From Methanoregula formicica SMSP (GTDB taxonomy: Archaea; Halobacteriota; Methanomicrobia; Methanomicrobiales; Methanospirillaceae), in contig NC_019943.1 of assembly GCF_000327485.1 (NCBI RefSeq), positions 2,046,001 to 2,110,000 of the forward strand: a stretch of DNA of 64,000 nucleotides, read 5' to 3'. Shown here piece by piece: positions 1,142 to 10,606 of the stretch. A program made the translations under genes and the position numbers. The stretch's first letter is position 1; the number at the start of each line of letters is the position of its first letter. The notes under the pieces were generated by a model. The model saw only the letters and a list, made by a program, of their open reading frames with translations, was not told the DNA's origin and did not search any database.

Positions 1142-1660
1142 TCAGCGTGTCCTGCCGGCATGTCTCATCAGCGCGAGCAGGCCGGAAAGGATCTCCTTTG
1201 GGGCCGGCGGGTTGCCCGGGATCTTCAGATCGACTGGAACAATCTTCTCTGCCCCGCCGAGCACGGCGTAAGAACCGGCAAAGATCCCGCCGGTGCAGGC
1301 ATCGTCGCCCACGGCCACCACGAACTTCGGCGACGGCATGGCATCGTAGGTCTTTTGTGCCGCTGCCGCCATGTTGTGGGTCACCGCTCCGGTCACCAGG
1401 AGCACGTCCGCATGGCGGGGAGAAGCCACGAACGTGATGCCGAACCGCTCGACATCGTAATACGGATTCGTGAGATTGTTGATCTCGATCTCGGCTGCAT
1501 TGTCGCTCCCCGTATCAAGTTCGCGGATCGCGAGACTCCCGCCAAACACGGCGTCGACCTCGCGCCGGATCTCCCGGCCCAGTGTCTCGATCTCTTCATC
1601 CCGTGCCGGAATGTCAGCTGTTACTTTCCTCTTCAGCAGGCAGGATAGTACGTTCACCAT
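1142..1660 (-). CDS. hydrogenase-like small subunit (HyfI/NuoB family) lacking all Fe-S ligands
   Basis: A 172-residue protein of the NuoB/HycG family, clear from ERFGITFVASPRHADVLLVTG, SGGIF-like TGGIF and KIVPVDLKIPGNPP. In this family four cysteines bind the proximal [4Fe-4S] cluster (GCNGCE, GAC, PGCPP). Here they align with Asp53, Ala56, Asp120 and Asn150; the only nearby cysteine, Cys122, is shifted by two residues. The fold looks conserved, but the cluster should be absent. It is the last gene of the six-gene operon, 12 bases after the large subunit stop, and has a strong GAGGTGA ribosome binding site overlapping that stop. There are no frameshifts, so this does not look like a decaying gene. 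Confidence 0.88.
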   Translation of the reverse strand: MVNVLSCLLKRKVTADIPARDEEIETLGREIRREVDAVFGGSLAIRELDTGSDNAAEIEINNLTNPYYDVERFGITFVASPRHADVLLVTGAVTHNMAAAAQKTYDAMPSPKFVVAVGDDACTGGIFAGSYAVLGGAEKIVPVDLKIPGNPPAPKEILSGLLALMRHAGRTR

Positions 1661-1672
1661 TGTTACGTCACC

Positions 1673-3253
1673 TCACAGGTCTGTCCCCGCGTAGGACAGG
1701 TTCAGGCTCTTGTTGATGAGCGGGAAATCCGGAACAATCTCCCCCTGGACTGCATGTTCGATGGCCAGCCAGTTGCAGTACGAGGCGGTCCGTACCTTGT
1801 AGCGTTCGACAACCCCGTTCCGGATCCAGACCCAGCAGAGGCTCTGGCCCCGTGCAGATTCCACGAGGGTGAGAGCATAACCGTCCTTTGCTTCCCATGC
1901 CACCCGTACCGGCCCTTCCGGCAGGGAGTCAAGCAGCCGCTCGATCAGGTCGAGCGAGTCCAGGATCTCGGATGCCCGGACGGTAAACCGGGAGAGCACG
2001 TCGCCGTCATGCAGCGTCCTGACGGACGGGGGATGGCGGGAGTAGATGCCATAGGGGTGGTCGACCCGGACATCTCCGTTCCCGCCGGAAGCCCGGGCCG
2101 TCGGCCCGGTGATGTTGAGCGGCCGGAGGATCGATCTCCGGACCACTCCTGTCGGCGAGAACCGGTCGATGACAGATGCGGTCGAGAGCACGATCTTCAG
2201 GCCTGTACGGTACCGTTTCCGGACCTGCCGGACAAACTGCCCGAGCGCCTCAAGATCTTCGGTGCGGATATCGCGGGAGATCCCTCCGGGCACAATCATC
2301 CCCCGCAGGAACCGCGAGCCGGTCAGGTGGGCGTTCATCCGGAACACTTCCTCGCGGATCACCGCAAACTGGCTGGCCCCGAGCGGGAAGGCCACGTCCA
2401 CGAGCATGCCGGCCTGGTCCCCGAGGTGCGAACCGATCCGTTCCAGCTCCATGAGGATGGTCCGCAGGGCCCAGGCCCGTTCCGGCACGTGTGTTCCTGC
2501 AATCCTCTCCACGGCGATACAGAAGGCAACGGTGTTTGCCACGGACTCGTCCCCGCTGACCGCTTCGGCAATGCGGACTACGTCCACGGGTAGTCTTCCT
2601 TCCGCCAGCTTCTCGACCCCGCGGTGCTTATAGAACATCCGGACCTCGAGATTGAAGATCTTCTCGCCGATAACGCTGAACCGGAAATGCCCCGGCTCGA
2701 TGATACCGGCATGGACCGGGCCGACCGGAATCTGGTACACGCCATCACCCTGCACGCCACGGAAGGGATACTCCTTGGACGGTTCCACGGAAGGTTTCAT
2801 CATGGGAGGAATGTTCCCGACACTCTTTTTCAAGGGATGGTAATCATCAGGATAGGTCTCGTGGAGAAGGAGCCTTCGTTCATCGAACGACCCCTCAAAT
2901 GCAATGCCAAACCCGTCCCGGCATTCCCGTTCGGGCCAGCAGGCCGAGGGCAGGAGCCGGGCAATGGATGGGGCAGAGTTCTCCGTATCCAGGACAACGA
3001 CAAGGAGGACACCTTTCTTTTCAAAAACATACAGGAGCGAGAACGGTGTGCCGGACGAGAAGTGCTCGGCGCAGAAAAGGCCGATGAGCGCACACTCGCG
3101 GGCAGCAAGGGATGTGACAAGCGGCAGGAACTCCGGTTCGCTCAGCCGGAGATACCATTCGCCATTGCATCCTTCCGTGATCCGTTCTGAAAGCGCACCC
3201 GGTCCCAGCAGTTCGCGTACCGCCTCTTTCCCCCTGCTCTTCTCTGCAACCAT
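1673..3253 (-). CDS. hydrogenase-like large subunit (HyfG/NuoCD fusion) lacking NiFe ligands
   Basis: A 526-residue protein: a NuoC-like 30 kDa domain (about residues 1-150) fused to a NuoD/HyfG-like 49 kDa domain, as in HycE and HyfG. The family core is clear (IPVGPVHAGIIEPGHF, YKHRGVEKLAEGR). NiFe enzymes have an RxCGxC motif after this; here the segment reads AVSGDESVANTVAF, putting Ser233 and Glu236 at the cysteine positions. The C-terminal DPCxxC is NLSYAG (residues 518-523), so Ser520 and Gly523 replace that pair. No NiFe site can form. The ATG at 3253 overlaps the HyfF-like stop by 4 bases. The frame is also open further upstream, but that part is a shadow of the preceding gene. Confidence 0.9.
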   Translation of the reverse strand: MVAEKSRGKEAVRELLGPGALSERITEGCNGEWYLRLSEPEFLPLVTSLAARECALIGLFCAEHFSSGTPFSLLYVFEKKGVLLVVVLDTENSAPSIARLLPSACWPERECRDGFGIAFEGSFDERRLLLHETYPDDYHPLKKSVGNIPPMMKPSVEPSKEYPFRGVQGDGVYQIPVGPVHAGIIEPGHFRFSVIGEKIFNLEVRMFYKHRGVEKLAEGRLPVDVVRIAEAVSGDESVANTVAFCIAVERIAGTHVPERAWALRTILMELERIGSHLGDQAGMLVDVAFPLGASQFAVIREEVFRMNAHLTGSRFLRGMIVPGGISRDIRTEDLEALGQFVRQVRKRYRTGLKIVLSTASVIDRFSPTGVVRRSILRPLNITGPTARASGGNGDVRVDHPYGIYSRHPPSVRTLHDGDVLSRFTVRASEILDSLDLIERLLDSLPEGPVRVAWEAKDGYALTLVESARGQSLCWVWIRNGVVERYKVRTASYCNWLAIEHAVQGEIVPDFPLINKSLNLSYAGTDL

Positions 3254-4734
3254 CAGAACATCAGCTCCGCAACGACCTGATCCAGGAACGCCACCTCTCC
3301 CGACGTGATGACCGTCCCGAGGATAAGGGTCAGGACAAGGAGGACAATGACAGGAAGGTTCATACCGGCGGGGGTCTGGTAACGGACAATCTCTGCGTGT
3401 GCCCCGGGGCCGGATACCTGCGTGAACGTGCGGAGCACGAAGTACCCGAATGCCCCGGCAGCGATGAAGAGCAGGACGAGAAGGATGACCAGGGCAACAG
3501 GTGAGAAGCCCGCCAGCTGCACGAGGAGGAAGAACTTCGAGAGGAAGACCGGGAAGAGCGGCATCCCGGTGATGGCAAGGCCGCCAAGGACGATCCCCCA
3601 TGCCGCAACCGGCTGGAGGGCGAAGACATCCCGCATATCGTCCACCGCATCCGGGGAGAGTGTGCTGTGGTACTGGCGGTGGAGGATACCGGCAGAGAAG
3701 AAGAGGCCGGCTTTCGTGAACGCATGGGCCATCACATGGAAGAGCACCCAGAAGATGGCAAGGGGGGTTGCAACCGCGAGCCCGATGAGAAGGATCCCCA
3801 TGTTCTCGATACTGGAGAACGCGATCAGCTTCTTGAGTTTCTTCTGGGGAAGCATGGACAGGGCCGCGATGAAGACCGTCAGGAGGCCGAAGATCAGGAG
3901 CAGGAGCGAGACCGTGGAGACTGCGGTTGTCTGGTGGACGATGGCAAAGACGCGGATGATGCCATAGATCCCCACATTCAGGAGGACCCCGGATAGGATC
4001 GCACTCACTGCTGACGGCGCCCGTACATGGGCTTCGGGAAGCCAGGTATGGAAGGGGAATATACCCGACTTTGCGGCAAAGCCGATGAAGATGAGGGCGA
4101 ATGCCGCGATCACCATGCCGGGCGGGAAGGATCCGGCCTGCTGCATCAGGACGGTCCAGTTGAGGGTGCCGGTACCCACGACGCTCCGCGAGATCTCGAA
4201 GAGGAATATGAGGCCGACGAACGAGAAGAGCATGGAGACCGACGCGATGAAGATGTACTTGATAGCTGCATCGATGTTGTCCCGTGCGTACAGGATCGCG
4301 ACCAGCATGGCGGAGATGACCGTTGTCAGCTCGGTGAAGATCCAGAAGAGGGCAAGGTTGTCCGAGAAGAACGCAAGGACGATGACCAGCAGGAGGAAGG
4401 CCCAGGAACCATAGAAGAGCTTCAGGCTCCCCCGGGAAAGTTCCCGCGCCTCGATCAGGTTCTCGACATACCCTCTCGCATAGACCGCGGCGAGAAGGAA
4501 GATGACGGTGGCAATGAGCACTTCGTAGATGCCCAGATGGTCGATGAAGAAGAATTCGTTCCCGACCGTAAGCAAGGTCATGGGGATCTGCCCGGAAAGG
4601 ATGAGCCAGGCCGAGATGCAGAGGAAGATGGCGGCTTCTGCGATACAGGCCGAGTTCATCTGCCGGTGGGTCCGGCCCAGTGCAATGGCGGCAAGCGCCG
4701 CTGCCGCGACGAGGACAAAAGCTGCGAGGATCAT
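3253..4734 (-). CDS. proton-conducting membrane subunit, HyfF-like (NuoM/NuoN family)
   Basis: A 493-residue polytopic membrane protein of the Mrp-antiporter-like family, with about 14 hydrophobic helices. The signature segment AKSGIFPFHTWLPEAHV includes the conserved lysine and histidine of the ion path, followed by APSAVSAILSGVLLNVG. A glutamate in IFTELTTVIS lies in the helix that normally carries the TM5 glutamate. Loss of electron-transfer cofactors in the soluble subunits is therefore not matched by loss of the channel residues here. It shares 4-base ATGA overlaps with both the gene before (HyfE-like) and the gene after (large subunit), so tight translational coupling is likely. Confidence 0.9.
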   Translation of the reverse strand: MILAAFVLVAAAALAAIALGRTHRQMNSACIAEAAIFLCISAWLILSGQIPMTLLTVGNEFFFIDHLGIYEVLIATVIFLLAAVYARGYVENLIEARELSRGSLKLFYGSWAFLLLVIVLAFFSDNLALFWIFTELTTVISAMLVAILYARDNIDAAIKYIFIASVSMLFSFVGLIFLFEISRSVVGTGTLNWTVLMQQAGSFPPGMVIAAFALIFIGFAAKSGIFPFHTWLPEAHVRAPSAVSAILSGVLLNVGIYGIIRVFAIVHQTTAVSTVSLLLLIFGLLTVFIAALSMLPQKKLKKLIAFSSIENMGILLIGLAVATPLAIFWVLFHVMAHAFTKAGLFFSAGILHRQYHSTLSPDAVDDMRDVFALQPVAAWGIVLGGLAITGMPLFPVFLSKFFLLVQLAGFSPVALVILLVLLFIAAGAFGYFVLRTFTQVSGPGAHAEIVRYQTPAGMNLPVIVLLVLTLILGTVITSGEVAFLDQVVAELMF

Positions 4735-5423
4735 GGCCCGTCCTCCGTGTCACCCACAAGATGGAAGCGGTGGAGGCGCTGGTGGTACTCTTCGAGCGTG
4801 GAGTCGAGGCCGACGGTTAAGATCGTAGTCAGTATCACGAGGATGATGAGGTCGATGATGATCAGGAACTCGATGATGAACGGGAGCTCGGTGACAAACA
4901 TCCCAAAGAGCAGCACGCCATTCTCCATTGAGAGGTAGCCAAGGACCTTTGTTATAGCCCGTTTCCGCGAGAACGTGACCATCATCCCCATGAGCATCAG
5001 GGAGAGGCCGATGACGGCGCCGAAGAAGAAGAGGCTCTCCCGGGCAGGAGTCCCTTCAAGGATATTTGCCAGCGCTATGTAGATGAAGAGAATCAGGGCC
5101 ATGGAGAGGAGGAGCGAGGTCGTGGGGCTCAGGAAATGGAACTCGATGTCGCGCCGGATCCGGATCCGTTCCTGGATGCTGGCGATGAAGTAGGGGATGA
5201 CGATCACCTTGCTCACGAACGTTACCGCGGCGATGGCAAGGAGGACGGTCGCGCCCTCAAGCGACCAGAGGGCGAGCGCCATAAGGACAAGAGTGAGCGA
5301 CTGGAGGGCGTAGACCGATACCAACGAGATGAGGTTCCTTGTCGAGATGATGTAGGCTGCCGTGACTATGACAACCGCAAAGAGGATCCGGATTACTGAC
5401 TGGATGAGCGCGGGATCGATCAT
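4731..5423 (-). CDS. membrane subunit HyfE-like (NuoK-related)
   Basis: A 230-residue membrane protein with about seven hydrophobic helices, like HyfE of hydrogenase 4: an N-terminal extension plus a NuoK-like C-terminal half. The NuoK-type glutamate is visible in KVLGYLSMENGVLLFG, and a further acidic helix follows (FIIEFLIIIDLIILV). In complex I and group 4 hydrogenases this subunit lies between the antiporter subunits and the NuoH-like subunit and lines the proton path. It has ATGA overlaps on both sides within the operon. Confidence 0.88.
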   Translation of the reverse strand: MIDPALIQSVIRILFAVVIVTAAYIISTRNLISLVSVYALQSLTLVLMALALWSLEGATVLLAIAAVTFVSKVIVIPYFIASIQERIRIRRDIEFHFLSPTTSLLLSMALILFIYIALANILEGTPARESLFFFGAVIGLSLMLMGMMVTFSRKRAITKVLGYLSMENGVLLFGMFVTELPFIIEFLIIIDLIILVILTTILTVGLDSTLEEYHQRLHRFHLVGDTEDGP

Positions 5424-6361
5424 GCGAACACCTCGATGATGATGATGAGCGTGGAGAAGAAGAACGCCATGGCAAAGAGGCTCGGGAGGCGGAAGAACCG
5501 CATCTTCGCCATCGAAGACTCAAAGAGGCCGATGATCGCGGCAAGGACCGTGGCCTTGAGAACAAAGAGGACTGCCGCCACCGCGATCGTGCCGATTGCA
5601 AGCGTCGTGGTGAGACCGAAGGGGACGATGAGGTTGATTAAAAGCGCCATCAGGAGCGTGAGTTTCACGGCTGCCGAGAGTTCCATGAGCGCCAGGTTCT
5701 TGCCGGACTGCTCAAGGATCATCCCCTCGTGGATCATGGTCAGTTCCAGGTGGGTCTCCGGGTTGTCGACCGGGATCCGTGAAGTCTCGACCACGAGGAT
5801 GATGAAGAGCGAGATCCCCAGCAGGATGAGGGTGGGGGTGGCGGGTGCGCCGGCGGCAGCGGATGCGGCAAACATGTCGAAGACATTTAAGGATTTGAAG
5901 ACAAAGACCAGCGCGGCAAAGACGATGATGGTCGTTGGCTCGATGATGGCCGAGATGCTCATCTCCCGTGAGCTGCCCATGCCGCCAAACGAACTGCCTG
6001 CGTCAAGGCCGGCGAGCGCCATGAAGAACCGGGCAAGCGCGAGGAGGTAGAGCAACAGGATGATATTGCCTATCCCCCCAACCGGCTCGGGAACGAAGAC
6101 GAGCGGGACGAAGAGTGCGGCGACCAGTACCGCAGCAATGCTCACATAGGGCGTCAGCCGCATGATCCACGAGGAGTGTGACGAGTACACCGTCTCCTTC
6201 TTCAGCAGTTTTGCAAGGGTGAAGTAGGTCTGGAAGACGGACGGCCCGCTCCTCCCCTGTGCCCGGGCTTTCACTTTTTTGATAAGGCTGACAAACAGCG
6301 GTGCAACGAGCAGCACGGCTGATGTGTTGAGCACCAGGTACAGGCCAAAGGAAAGGTTCAT
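5420..6361 (-). CDS. membrane subunit HyfC-like (NuoH family)
   Basis: A 313-residue NuoH/HyfC-type membrane anchor with about eight helices. Family hallmarks are visible: ARAQGRSGPSVFQTYF near the N terminus and RIPVDNPETHLELTMIHEG, the acidic loop that meets the large and small subunits. These acidic residues are kept although the partner subunits have lost their cofactors. I chose the ATG at 6361 because it forms the same 4-base ATGA overlap with the upstream stop that the other membrane genes show. A GTG nine bases earlier (6370) is the alternative. Confidence 0.88.
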   Translation of the reverse strand: MNLSFGLYLVLNTSAVLLVAPLFVSLIKKVKARAQGRSGPSVFQTYFTLAKLLKKETVYSSHSSWIMRLTPYVSIAAVLVAALFVPLVFVPEPVGGIGNIILLLYLLALARFFMALAGLDAGSSFGGMGSSREMSISAIIEPTTIIVFAALVFVFKSLNVFDMFAASAAAGAPATPTLILLGISLFIILVVETSRIPVDNPETHLELTMIHEGMILEQSGKNLALMELSAAVKLTLLMALLINLIVPFGLTTTLAIGTIAVAAVLFVLKATVLAAIIGLFESSMAKMRFFRLPSLFAMAFFFSTLIIIIEVFA

Positions 6362-8295
6362 GCCAGCCACCCCAGGAAGACGATGACCGCGATCACGGCG
6401 CAGAAGACATAGAGAAGGTACGTGTCAAGGCACCCGCTCTGGAACCGGGAGACCGTCTCCGCGGTCGCATACGAGGCCCGCGCAACGGGCAGGTACAGGT
6501 ATTCCTCGAATACTTTGATGAGCCGGATCCCGGCATTGCCTCCGGCAAAGATGCAGTTCTTCTGGTCAAAGAACATGCGTTCGTTCTTCATCTTTGTCCG
6601 GTACACGGTGGAGAAGATGATGTCGATGGGTTCCGAGAACCCGTGACCGGAGTACTCCATCGCCGGCTGCTGCGAGAGCGTACCGCACCCCCAGGTTCCG
6701 GTAACCCGCACGTCCCGGGATGCTGTAAAGAAGAGGGCCGCAAACGTAAGGACGAGCATGGCGAGCAGGAGCAGGCCGACAAGGAACAGGTCGGGCATCG
6801 GCACGGTGAAACCGGTGAGGAGGAAGATCTGGGCGGCAAAGAGACCAAGGAGGATACAGGCCGATGCAAGCAGCGCAGGGCCAAACAGCATCAGGAAAGG
6901 AACCTCTTCTGCCCTGCCACTCTCCGGAGAGCGGGGGAGCGCTAAAAAGACCGATCCGAACGCCTTGACAAAACAGGCTGCCGAGAGCGCGCTTGTCAGG
7001 GCAAAAAGGCCAAGGCAGAGGAAGAGCAGCACCTTGAAGAGCGGGTCTGCCACCGCAATGGAAGAGAAGAACGAGATGAACAGCAACACTTCGCTCGCAA
7101 ACCCGTTCAGCGGGGGGAGGGCCGCGATGGCAAGCGCACCGACAAAGAACAGCCCGGCAGTGAACGGCATCCGGTGGATGAGTCCGCCCATCTTCTCGAT
7201 GTCCCGGGTATGCGTGGCATGGACAACGGAACCGGCCGTCAGGAAGAGGAGGCTCTTGAACATGGCGTGGTTGAGGGCATGGAAGAGGGCGGAGAGCAGG
7301 CTGATCAGGGCAAGATCAAAAAGCTGGTAACTGGAGAAGATTACATACAGGCCGATACCCATGAAGATGATGCCGGTATTCTCGATGCTGCTGTACGCGA
7401 GCATGGCCTTGATATCGTACTCCTTTAAAGCGTAGATGATCCCGAGGACAGCCGTTGCCGTGCCCATGACAAGGATGAGGAGCCCCCACCAGAGTTCCGG
7501 TGAGAACACATCCAGCAGGAAACGGAGAAGCCCGTACACCGCGATCTTGAGCATCACGCCGGACATGAGGGCCGATATCGGCGTCGGGCTCGCGGGATGG
7601 GCATAGGGAAGCCACTTGTGGAACGGGATGATGCCGGCCTTGATGGAGAAACCGATAAGGAGGGCTACTAAAGCAATGGCCGAAACGGGCGAGACGCCAG
7701 CTGGTGCCAGGGCAAAGGATCCTGTCGAGAGGACGAGGAGGACGATACCCAGCAGGACAAAGAGCGTCGAGAGATGGGTCATCACGAAATAGAAGAGCCC
7801 GGCCTTCCGCGTCGCGGCACGGGAATAGTCGTACATCACGAGAAGGAACGAGCACCCTGCCATGAGTTCCCAGAAGACCAGGAAGGAGAAGGTGTTGGCT
7901 GAAGCCACCACGAGCACCATGGAGAGGATGAACAGGTTCGTGCAGGCAGAGAGGAGATTCCTGCGCAAGCCCCCTTCAAGATGCTCGTTGTATTCTGCCG
8001 CATAGAGGGCAACGCATACCGACACCACGGAAATCAGGAGCAGGAAGAAGGCGGAGAGCCGGTCGATGGCAAACGAGAGGGAAAAGCCGGCAACCGGCTG
8101 GTACGCAGTCCAGGCAATATCGTTGCCGGTAAGGAGGAGGAAGAGCGAGAGGGCCCCGAGGAGAACAGATCCGGCGATGGTGCAGAGCTGCGATCCGGCC
8201 CGGAAGATACGGCGGTCCTGCCATGCGCCGGCAAGGGGCAGGAAGACCCCGACAACAAAGATACCGAGGGAGATGATGAAGAGCCCTGCGATCAT
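6358..8295 (-). CDS. proton-conducting membrane subunit, HyfB-like (NuoL family)
   Basis: The first gene of the operon, a 645-residue polytopic protein of the NuoL/HyfB antiporter family. FWELMAGCSFLLVMYD contains the TM5 glutamate, and FSIKAGIIPFHKWLPYAHPA contains the conserved lysine and the HKWLP motif, so the ion pathway looks complete. The C terminus extends beyond the core with extra helices, as in HyfB. I chose the ATG at 8295 because GGTGATC lies just upstream and the protein then starts directly with its first helix (MIAGLFIISL). A longer frame back to 8352 would add 19 polar residues with no family support. Confidence 0.88.
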   Translation of the reverse strand: MIAGLFIISLGIFVVGVFLPLAGAWQDRRIFRAGSQLCTIAGSVLLGALSLFLLLTGNDIAWTAYQPVAGFSLSFAIDRLSAFFLLLISVVSVCVALYAAEYNEHLEGGLRRNLLSACTNLFILSMVLVVASANTFSFLVFWELMAGCSFLLVMYDYSRAATRKAGLFYFVMTHLSTLFVLLGIVLLVLSTGSFALAPAGVSPVSAIALVALLIGFSIKAGIIPFHKWLPYAHPASPTPISALMSGVMLKIAVYGLLRFLLDVFSPELWWGLLILVMGTATAVLGIIYALKEYDIKAMLAYSSIENTGIIFMGIGLYVIFSSYQLFDLALISLLSALFHALNHAMFKSLLFLTAGSVVHATHTRDIEKMGGLIHRMPFTAGLFFVGALAIAALPPLNGFASEVLLFISFFSSIAVADPLFKVLLFLCLGLFALTSALSAACFVKAFGSVFLALPRSPESGRAEEVPFLMLFGPALLASACILLGLFAAQIFLLTGFTVPMPDLFLVGLLLLAMLVLTFAALFFTASRDVRVTGTWGCGTLSQQPAMEYSGHGFSEPIDIIFSTVYRTKMKNERMFFDQKNCIFAGGNAGIRLIKVFEEYLYLPVARASYATAETVSRFQSGCLDTYLLYVFCAVIAVIVFLGWLA

Positions 8296-8408
8296 GATAC
8301 GATCACCGGGACCCCGGAAGCTGTGGCGTTCCCGCCGTGAACAGCAAGGCACGATCCAGAAAAAACGCCCGACATTTTAAGAAGTTGCTGATACCGATCC
8401 ATTGAGAT

Positions 8409-8687: not shown

Positions 8688-9035
8688 TCATACCAGCGCT
8701 TTCTCAATCTCCGCCTTTGTCCGGTCAAGGACGATCCGGCCGATCTTGGTTACCCTGCCATTGACCAGGATCATGGGGATGGGCGGGTGCTCGTGCTCGA
8801 TAATTTCCTTGATATAATTTGGAGTTCCCTCATCGAGAAGGGTCAGTTTCGTTTCCACGCGGTCGCCATACGCTGCTTTCAGGGCATTTGTGAGCGCCTG
8901 GAAGGCAGCGACCAGTTTTCCGGAATGGAAGCATTCTTCAAGACCGCAGGTACGGTCATCGTCACAGGGAAAAGGGGAGCACTCCGAGGTCTTCAGGCCG
9001 ACAACTTCGACCGTTACGGTTCCAGCCATGCCCAT
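8688..9035 (-). CDS. small cysteine-rich thioredoxin-fold-like protein
   Basis: I do not recognise a named family. The 115-residue protein starts with a beta strand (TVTVEVVGL), followed by a cysteine-rich segment SECSPFPCDDDRTCGLEEC with four cysteines. Its C-terminal half contains PPIPMILVNGRVTKIGRI, like the cis-proline strand of thioredoxin-fold proteins. A thioredoxin-like redox or metal-binding protein is the best guess. The start is ATG 9035 or 9029; neither has a clear ribosome binding site, and an AT-rich box near 9045-9055 suggests a near-leaderless transcript. It lies beside the FTR-rubredoxin and glutaredoxin genes on the same strand. Confidence 0.7.
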   Translation of the reverse strand: MGMAGTVTVEVVGLKTSECSPFPCDDDRTCGLEECFHSGKLVAAFQALTNALKAAYGDRVETKLTLLDEGTPNYIKEIIEHEHPPIPMILVNGRVTKIGRIVLDRTKAEIEKALV

Positions 9036-9188
9036 GATCTTTGCGGGAAAAGTATAAGAGAATGTTCAAAATGGCATAGTGTATCCTTGCTGGCGCAAAG
9101 GGGGGATTATTACAGGGAATAGGCATTCACCATAACACACAATTGTTCAATCGCCCGAAAAAGAGGGTATCAACAATCCTGAAAAAAA

Positions 9189-9719
9189 TTACAGGAACCG
9201 CTCGAACCGGTCCTTTTTTGCCTTGCAGACCGGGCAGATGCCCGGGGGCTGATCGCGTGCGCAGAGATAGCCGCATACCTTGCAGCGCCAGACCGGGAAC
9301 GGGAGGCTCCCGAAGGTTGCCCCTCCACCGACTGCGACCGTCTGGACAGCACGCTCCTTCATCGTTCCCCGCTGGGAGCGGGGCGGGCGGCGTTCGGGAA
9401 CGGGCGCGACCTTCCGCGTACCGTCTGCGATCGCCTCGCTGACGTACAGGGCGCAGTAACAGGCGCCATGCTCCTCAATGTCCGAATCGCGGTAATCGCA
9501 GGGACAGATGATGTCAAGATCCTCTTCTTTTTTCCCGGAAGCCAGCCGGCAGGGGCAGGCCCGGTACCCGTACCGCTGTTCGTTCTTCAGGAGACCTCGG
9601 ATAAGGTTTTTCACAAACTCTGCATCCGGGTTGAGGAGGTATCCCCCGTCCAGGGCATCCTTCCTGAGAGCATCATATGCCCGGTCAACGTCCTGCTCGC
9701 TGATGCCGGTAAACGTCAT
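9189..9719 (-). CDS. ferredoxin:thioredoxin reductase catalytic domain fused to rubredoxin
   Basis: A 176-residue two-domain protein. Residues 1-100 carry the FTR beta-chain cysteine pattern: RACPCRLA, IICPCDYRD and HGACYC, which hold a [4Fe-4S] cluster next to a redox-active disulfide. After a basic, Pro/Arg-rich linker, the last ~40 residues form a rubredoxin-like domain (WRCKVCGYLC and GICPVC). Such proteins pass single electrons from ferredoxin or rubredoxin-type donors to disulfides. The gene overlaps the upstream glutaredoxin by an ATGA, and that protein is the obvious partner. No separate FTR variable chain is visible in this window. Confidence 0.88.
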   Translation of the reverse strand: MTFTGISEQDVDRAYDALRKDALDGGYLLNPDAEFVKNLIRGLLKNEQRYGYRACPCRLASGKKEEDLDIICPCDYRDSDIEEHGACYCALYVSEAIADGTRKVAPVPERRPPRSQRGTMKERAVQTVAVGGGATFGSLPFPVWRCKVCGYLCARDQPPGICPVCKAKKDRFERFL

Positions 9720-9991
9720 GGTGCTAGGGCCTCCCGGATCTCCTGCTCACGGAACCCGATGATGACCTTGTTATTGTTGATCACAAGCGTGGGGAATGAG
9801 CCGCTGGGATTAAACTTCTCGACCAGCGTAATCGCATCCTCCTGCTCTTTGCCATCCAGAAGATCGACAAAGGTATAATCGAATGCCACTCCGATCTCGC
9901 GGAGGAGATCCTTGGTCTTTGCACACCACCCGCATGTGGAGAGCGCGTACAGCACGACGTTTCCCTTGTCCTTTCCGTCAACGTGTTCCAT
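9716..9991 (-). CDS. glutaredoxin-like protein
   Basis: A 91-residue single-domain glutaredoxin/NrdH-type protein. The active site CGWC is near residues 20-23 after YALSTCGWCAKTKDLL, the cis-proline strand is GSFPTLVINN, and GFREQEIREAL forms the last helix. It is translationally coupled (4-base overlap) to the FTR-rubredoxin fusion, so the pair probably forms a ferredoxin-dependent dithiol reducing system. A TATA box upstream (10039-10046) fits transcription start near 10015. Confidence 0.9.
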   Translation of the reverse strand: MEHVDGKDKGNVVLYALSTCGWCAKTKDLLREIGVAFDYTFVDLLDGKEQEDAITLVEKFNPSGSFPTLVINNNKVIIGFREQEIREALAP

Positions 9992-10038
9992 GAAACCGGG
10001 TCTCCCTCTGTTGTATGATGGGAAGTTGCGGCAGATAG

Positions 10039-10046
10039 TATTTATA
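10039..10046 (-). promoter_or_regulatory. TATA box of the glutaredoxin/FTR operon
   Basis: The minus strand reads TATAAATA, preceded by GGG. Transcription would start about 25 bases downstream (near 10015), leaving a leader of about 24 bases before the glutaredoxin ATG at 9991. Confidence 0.55.
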
Positions 10047-10108
10047 CCCGGGGATAGTGCGCAGAGATATCCGGGAAAAAAGAGTTGTGGATGATTGAGG
10101 TTCTGTCT

Positions 10109-10606
10109 TCACTTCTTCTTCATGATGATCTCGACGTCTTCGAGAAGTGCCTGAAGGTCTTCCTCATGTTCGACTTCCTGCGAGAGGATCGTGAGGAGGA
10201 TATTGTAGGTGACCGGGTCTTTGTCTTTTGTCTTCTTCATCAGGGAATTGTACGTCTTGATGGCGCACTGCTCGCCCTTGATGTTCTGTTCTAAAATCTT
10301 CACGATGAACGGGTCATCCGGGGCATCGTACCCGCAGTTGGTGAACTTGTACCAGTCCTGCGGCTTGGTTATGGGTGTTCCGCCAAGCTGGATGATGCGG
10401 GTCGTCAGCAGTGTCGCGTGGTTCAGTTCTTCGGTTGCATGGAGCGTGAGTTCGCTGATGACCGCTTCCTTGTTGGGACCCTTGACAACCTTGGAGCCGA
10501 TCCAGTACTGGTAGTAGGCGAGCCATTCATCGCAATAGGCCTTGTTGAGCAGGTTCACGATCTCCTTTACGTCGCTTCCGACAATCTTCTGTCCTAGTGT
10601 TCCCAT
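10109..10606 (-). CDS. ferritin-like / DPS-like di-iron protein
   Basis: A 165-residue four-helix ferritin-like protein. Iron-ligand type residues occur in the expected pattern: DEWLAYYQYW on helix A, ELTLHATEELNHA (E..H) on helix B, NIKGEQCAIKTYN on helix C and LSQEVEHEEDL (E..H) on helix D. This fits the bacterioferritin/DPS-like superfamily, which oxidises and stores iron or removes peroxide. A strong ribosome binding site (AGAGGTGA) precedes the ATG at 10606, and a TTTAAA box sits near 10656. Divergent from carA. Together with the neighbouring thiol-redox genes, an oxidative-stress role is likely. Confidence 0.85.
   Translation of the reverse strand: MGTLGQKIVGSDVKEIVNLLNKAYCDEWLAYYQYWIGSKVVKGPNKEAVISELTLHATEELNHATLLTTRIIQLGGTPITKPQDWYKFTNCGYDAPDDPFIVKILEQNIKGEQCAIKTYNSLMKKTKDKDPVTYNILLTILSQEVEHEEDLQALLEDVEIIMKKK

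Follow-up and report, generated by a model that had tools for sequence, protein, structure and literature searches.

Loss of both NiFe and Fe-S cysteine ligands in an Ehr-type operon of Methanoregula formicica

What remains of a hydrogenase-like complex when the cysteines of its catalytic subunit and of its electron-transferring partner have both been replaced? This question is raised by the gene at 1142-1660 of the window, i.e. the whole stretch of 64,000 nucleotides analysed here, which derives from a genome of 2,820,858 bases in a single contig. This gene closes a six-gene operon on the minus strand (1142-8352) with the order NuoL/HyfB, NuoH/HyfC, HyfE, NuoM-N/HyfF, NuoC-D/HycE and NuoB/HycG types.

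Ligand positions in the small and large subunits

The open reading frame 1142-1660 on the minus strand is intact and starts with ATG. Its product of 172 aa matches the Pfam family Oxidored_q6 (PF01058) with an E-value of 5e-27, and among its phmmer matches are the 20-kDa subunit of complex I, HycG (E 1e-29) and MbhJ. According to the initial annotation, all four Fe-S ligands of this protein are lost, and both the alignment and the DNA codons verify this: residues 53, 56, 120 and 150 are D, A, D and N. In a gap-free alignment with Cys-bearing paralogues of the same order, these columns hold the cysteines of the CxxC, GxC and PGCPP motifs, and the flanking stretches LDTGSDNAAEIE, VGDDACTGG and IPGNPP pair with GSCNGCEIE, GSCGQSGG and PGCPP, respectively. 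Because the flanking motifs align without gaps, the assignment of the ligand columns is not in doubt. The positions concerned are:

1142..1660, minus strand: small subunit of NuoB/HycG (EhrS) type, 172 aa, without Fe-S ligands (PF01058, AlphaFold2 model, ortholog alignment)
1502..1504, minus strand: Asp53 codon GAC, first ex-ligand (Cys of CxxC); D in 61/61 archaeal orthologues, encoded by GAC in 48 and GAT in 13
1493..1495, minus strand: Ala56 codon GCC, second ex-ligand; A in 25, T in 34 and P in 2 of 61 archaeal sequences
1301..1303, minus strand: Asp120 codon GAT, third ex-ligand; D in 56 and E in 5 of 61 archaeal sequences
1211..1213, minus strand: Asn150 codon AAC, fourth ex-ligand (PGCPP); N in 60 and D in 1 of 61 archaeal sequences
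1295..1297, minus strand: Cys122 codon, a non-canonical ligand position; C in 61/61 archaeal members

Among the 61 distinct complete archaeal orthologues the pattern reads D-[A/T/P]-[D/E]-[N/D], with cysteine at none of the four positions. Close relatives with intact cysteines, which would have spoken for a locally decaying copy, were found in 0/61 cases, and the substitutions are conserved among homologues. Since these 61 sequences share the pattern while their D53, D120 and N150 codons vary synonymously, it is due neither to chance nor to a sequencing error. The N2-type tandem-Cys site of complex I and Fpo NuoB is likewise absent from the small subunit in the alignment. Alternative cysteine ligands were also considered and rejected: the whole small subunit contains two cysteines, C7, which is not conserved, and C122, the sole conserved one, and no cysteine of the large subunit is conserved above 86% among the archaeal members. 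Cys122 lies two residues past ex-ligand 120; it is invariant in the 61 archaeal Cys-less members and missing in the Patescibacteria. The NuoB subfamily model NF005012 of NCBIfam scores the Cys-less small subunit over its cut-off, and automatic annotation will therefore name the protein NADH-quinone oxidoreductase subunit B.

The best match of the partner large subunit is HycE from the formate hydrogenlyase of E. coli (E 4e-77), and in the alignment of the two the positions of the NiFe cysteines are taken by S233, E236, S520 and G523, again as had been claimed. VCGIC has become VSGDE, and DPCYSC has become NLSYAG.

1673..3253, minus strand: large subunit, fused NuoC-NuoD / HycE (EhrL) type, 526 aa (PF00329 and PF00346; phmmer match to HycE of formate hydrogenlyase, FHL, 4e-77; model TM 0.83 to HycE)
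2546..2557, minus strand: SGDE (residues 233-236), where CGxC, the first NiFe motif, would be expected; G and D invariant and S in 80/83 members of the archaeal clade, the same in Cys-bearing Ehr
1676..1714, minus strand: C-terminus NKSLNLSYAGTDL in place of DPCxxC, with no C-terminal extension to process; 83/83 archaeal members end here

In the archaeal clade, conserved SGD and NKSxNxSYxG motifs stand in for the NiFe motifs, and the former active-site pocket is among the best-conserved regions of the large subunit. All 83 archaeal large subunits terminate at the TDL position; as the protein ends at the NLSYAG motif, it has no maturation peptide.

The predicted structures show the fold to be kept despite the loss of the ligands, which agrees with the initial annotation. 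The AlphaFold2 model of the small subunit (15 sequences, pLDDT 80) matches MbhJ and the 20-kDa subunits of complex I over residues 36-172 (Z 16-18, 1.8-2 Å) and superposes most closely on MbhJ (Z 17.6, 1.9 Å over 135 residues). The model of the large subunit has a pLDDT of 72 and matches HycE with a TM score of 0.83. The loops of the former ligands are less certain, with pLDDT values of 59-65 in the small subunit and below 50 at the C-terminus of the large subunit. From the ligand positions of both proteins we infer that the pair probably carries no redox cofactor.

Relatives, phylogeny and selection

The small subunit is present in about 45 of 232 Methanomicrobia genomes, within which Cys-less proteins score at least 257 bits and the best Cys-bearing homologue about 150 bits. 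A wider sample of the phylum yielded about 20 further genomes and added Methanosarcina-type genomes and a small-genome group (f16). Furthermore, the gene was found in three Patescibacteria genomes of about 0.7-1.0 Mb, with the ex-ligand residues S-E-G-D (loci L043 and L140) or D-V-D-D (L141). In L140 and L141 the full operon is present in the order small subunit, NuoL, NuoH, HyfE, NuoM/N, large subunit; in L043 the small-subunit gene sits between dnaG/rpoD-type genes and a NuoL-type gene. Both L043 and L140 are located near rpoD/dnaG genes. The Cys-less subgroup hence spans Methanomicrobiales, Methanosarcina-type genomes and Patescibacteria, so that the range implied initially, Methanomicrobiales, was far too narrow.

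The Ehr (energy-converting hydrogenase-related) complexes were reportedly described by Marreiros and coworkers in 2013. They are characterized by a large subunit without the NiFe-binding CxxC motifs (PMC6349859, PMC10284858), and their function is given as unknown (PMC10284858). The M. formicica operon shares with them the subunit types, the relationship to group 4 hydrogenases and the large subunit devoid of NiFe cysteines. Plasmids of Rhizobium, Azospirillum, Cupriavidus, Burkholderia and Methylovirgula carry these six genes in identical order, as do the archaeal families f14, f30 and f36. In these sister operons, too, the NiFe cysteines of the large subunit have been replaced (SGDST..., NKSFNxSYSGHDL), but all four cysteines of the small subunit are present, so that the sampled Cys-bearing Ehr complexes of Proteobacteria and of the three archaeal families differ in this respect from the M. 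formicica subgroup, which has none. One Cys-bearing archaeal operon (L121:303-4397) contains two successive NuoL-type genes instead of one. Since the sister operons keep only the Fe-S cysteines, the two groups share the more widespread loss of the NiFe ligands, to which the Cys-less operons add that of the Fe-S ligands, and because these closest relatives retain four Fe-S cysteines, the Cys-less operons form a distinct, more degenerate Ehr subgroup. The earlier suggestion of a distinct subgroup is therefore upheld by the trees and by the Fe-S ligand loss that defines it; the missing NiFe ligands, being common to Cys-bearing Ehr, do not set it apart.

In the tree of the small subunit, the Cys-less rows, one Patescibacterial row included, make up one side of a branch (99/90). 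A second tree was calculated from the other four subunits (1949 columns), leaving out the small subunit. Here the Cys-less rows of the archaea come together in a single, fully supported clade, and the Patescibacteria are placed beside the Cys-bearing rows. A single Cys-less clade was not rejected by the AU test (p 0.44). The cysteines may have been lost once or, in the Patescibacterial proteins, a second time in an independent event. Both L085 and L117, which we take to be the loci of Methanospirillum hungatei and Methanosarcina acetivorans, belong to the archaeal Cys-less clade. For M. hungatei, Anderson et al. 2009 described the genes Mhun_1817-1822 ('Pmh'), with homologues in M. acetivorans and M. 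mazei, as lacking the NiFe cysteines; they noted this loss in the large subunit only and proposed a role involving ferredoxin (PMC2686161). Pmh is very probably the same operon family as that of M. formicica. Loss of the NiFe ligands had thus already been reported for homologous operons (PMC2686161), and our alignments support the view that loss of the Fe-S ligands alone defines the subgroup. No report of the latter was found in the literature searched, which did not extend to the 2013 work of Marreiros et al.

Pairwise dN/dS of the small subunit is about 0.05-0.19 where dS is usable, and most pairs of the large subunit give similar values. These comparisons show the genes to evolve under purifying selection, so that the dN/dS check proposed at the outset turned out against decay. 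The Cys-bearing paralogues of the same genomes have a dN/dS of about 0.014, compared with about 0.085 for the small subunit; the constraint is accordingly real but several-fold (about six times) weaker. Where the operon is missing from a genome, it is apparently absent as a whole unit. In genome G003 a stop-bearing remnant of the large-subunit gene (L189:6959-7132) lies between a carbonic anhydrase gene and an alpha/beta-hydrolase gene (bgl), which indicates that the operon was lost from that site. Some Cys-bearing homologues of the small subunit contain one in-frame stop within the match (TAA in G157, G158 and G159, TGA in G165).

Membrane arm and gene neighbourhood

The remaining four genes of the operon encode membrane subunits, which resemble HyfB, C, E and F of hydrogenase-4:

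3253..4734, minus strand: antiporter-like subunit of NuoM/NuoN / HyfF type, 493 aa (NF006427, 650 bits vs cut-off 511; E135, K222 and K341 in 34/34)
4731..5423, minus strand: HyfE-type (NuoK-like) membrane subunit, 230 aa (NF008556, E 2e-17; E167 in 34/34)
5420..6370, minus strand: NuoH / HyfC-type membrane anchor, E-channel subunit, 316 aa (PF00146, 2e-35; E195, E209, E215 and E230 in 34/34)
6358..8295, minus strand: antiporter-like subunit of NuoL / HyfB type (NF006418, 898 bits vs cut-off 794; K238, K366 and E421 in 33/33)

The NuoL-type reading frame is open from 8352; the likely ATG is near 8295, and the NF006418 match begins at residue 20 of the 664-aa frame. Virtually all members of both the Cys-less and the Cys-bearing group retain a set of charged residues, namely E162, K238, H362, K366 and E421 of NuoL, E135, K222 and K341 of NuoM/N, R135, E195, R198, D202, H207, E209, E215 and E230 of NuoH and E167 of HyfE. 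With the exception of a few positions, the TM5 Glu, the TM7 Lys and the later Lys/Glu of the antiporter-like subunits as well as the NuoH glutamates are present in 32-34 of 33-34 archaeal members. Variable charged sites are K400 of NuoM/N and E136, E205 and H214 of NuoH. As judged by gene content, the operon contains no electron-input module (NuoEFG, FpoF, NuoI), no electron-donating subunit and no flavin domain. A conserved C..C..C...C ferredoxin motif was not found within the operon at any of 40 loci of about 20 kb each, nor within about 6 kb of it at most of them. As the charged residues of the membrane subunits are kept and the ligands are gone, the pump-like parts are intact and the path for electrons is absent.

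Formate hydrogenlyase and hydrogenase-4 (Hyc/Hyf, group 4a) include the closest solved homologue of the large subunit, HycE, and one of the closest of the small subunit, HycG, but differ from the operon in having NiFe ligands, Fe-S ligands, the ferredoxin subunits HycB, HycF, HyfA and HyfH and a C-terminal maturation peptide. The two CxxC motifs, the proximal [4Fe-4S] ligands and the cleaved C-terminal extension by which group 4 [NiFe] hydrogenases are recognized are all missing. Mbh and Mbs of P. furiosus and complex I share with the operon the NuoB fold, the NuoH anchor, the antiporter-like subunits and the E-channel glutamates, yet they carry an intact Fe-S relay where the M. formicica complex has none.

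The operon is framed by conserved synteny of the Methanoregulaceae, with an alpha/beta-hydrolase gene downstream (299-1078) and a block of FTR-rubredoxin, glutaredoxin, ferritin and carA genes upstream (8688-10606). FTR-rubredoxin, glutaredoxin and ferritin were considered as redox partners and dismissed, as they belong to this synteny and occur without the operon. A beta-carbonic anhydrase (CA) gene is located at most 1.3 kb from the operon in 11/20 Methanoregulaceae, 4/4 Methanospirillum and 2 loci of family f2, and CA at first appeared to be a strong candidate for a functional partner. However, the block carA-ferritin-Grx-FTR-ORF-CA(-bgl) still has CA at its usual position in genomes without the operon. 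In M. formicica, CA is found 200 kb from the operon, together with a GNAT gene and near a transporter gene of the formate/nitrite family (L192, G000:C1:1841000-1853500). In relatives, the same CA and GNAT pair adjoins the operon. Because CA stays where the operon is missing and has left it in M. formicica, their linkage is mostly synteny, and CA is no more than a weak lead.

Proposed mode of action and alternatives

We consider it on balance probable that the operon encodes a member of an Ehr subgroup without NiFe centre or Fe-S cluster which acts as a cofactor-free, conformationally coupled ion translocator or antiporter. With its ligands replaced in a fixed way and its ion-moving membrane parts intact, the complex probably moves ions without electron chemistry. 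The peripheral pair would then serve as a clamp, gate or sensor on the NuoH-type anchor and not as an electron carrier. Its trigger would be protonation or the binding of a ligand at a polar pocket that replaces both metal centres and consists of SGDE/NLS of the large and D53-D120-N150 of the small subunit. The NuoH glutamates would relay the signal to the subunits of NuoL and NuoM type, which may exchange or conduct H+ and another cation without redox chemistry, ion gradients either driving these subunits or being built by them. Gating by protonation or a ligand is preferred because mere loss would not be expected to keep three ex-ligand sites acidic or amide and the ex-NiFe motifs almost without variation. 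In its most far-reaching form, namely that a quinone/hydrogenase module has turned into a cofactor-free, ligand- or proton-gated head coupled to antiporter-like subunits, with the machine fully uncoupled from redox chemistry in methanogens and, possibly through independent loss, in Patescibacteria, the proposal is plausible but put forward tentatively.

The main rival to this gating is a new metal site. The D53-D/E120-N150 triad might bind a hard divalent cation or an Asp-ligated cluster, in which case the cofactor would be changed and not lost. Three of the four ex-ligands are fixed as acidic or amide residues in the 61 archaeal sequences, although drift would be expected if the ligands had merely been lost, position 56 varies freely (A/T/P), and in the predicted model the fold gathers the ex-ligands in one pocket. 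The Patescibacterial members with S-E-G-D or D-V-D-D speak against such a site, and a [4Fe-4S] site without its four cysteines would to our knowledge be exceptional, so that we regard a changed cofactor as rather unlikely.

Given its neighbourhood, the complex could also be a PMF-coupled machine linked to CO2/bicarbonate or formate. DAB2 (DabA2-DabB2), a PMF-driven carbonic anhydrase in which a complex-I-like antiporter subunit drives a beta-CA-like subunit, is a precedent for coupling such an antiporter subunit to non-redox chemistry (PMC13144422); it differs in having two subunits, a beta-CA-like partner and no NuoB, NuoD or NuoH homologues, and the gene content of the operon includes no carbonic anhydrase subunit, of DabA type or other. 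Genes for formate transporters and formate dehydrogenases are repeatedly found near the operon, the nearby CA genes of Methanoregulaceae, Methanospirillum and one f2 genus lie on differing sides of it, and Geobacter Ehr proteins rise on formate (PMC7894505). On the other hand, Methanoregula genomes without the operon keep CA in the same gene block, CA of M. formicica moved away with the GNAT gene while the operon stayed, and at the Methanosarcina-type, f4/f5 and Patescibacterial loci the operon has no CA in its vicinity. A CO2- or formate-linked machine thus appears improbable, and the CA neighbourhood is a weak lead towards formate/CO2 physiology, which has also been suggested for Ehr elsewhere (PMC7894505, PMC6349859).

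Furthermore, redox work could persist if a diffusible two-electron substrate such as F420H2 or methanophenazine occupied the old NiFe pocket, where no Fe-S relay would be needed. Few regions of the large subunit are better conserved than this pocket, and the same pocket became the quinone site in complex I (PMC9474812). A redox partner or diffusible redox substrate might lie outside the operon. However, the operon provides neither an electron-donating subunit nor a flavin domain, and there is no obvious carrier common to Methanomicrobiales, Methanosarcina-type genomes and Patescibacteria, which makes this explanation improbable. That the genes are decaying hydrogenase remnants, as the Methanoregula genomes without the operon and the one stop-bearing remnant might suggest, is hardly tenable and was rejected for the intact loci in view of their wide occurrence in Methanomicrobia and the phylum sample, a dN/dS far below 1, the invariant motifs and the six genes staying together.

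Surveys in which the presence of such operons in Patescibacteria or methanogens is taken as a sign of H2 metabolism will be in error. It has long been asked by what means the redox reactions in the head of complex I bring about the movement of ions tens of angstroms from it. With a natural relative that retains head, coupling subunit and pumps but is devoid of any redox centre, this would become the question of what the head does without electrons.
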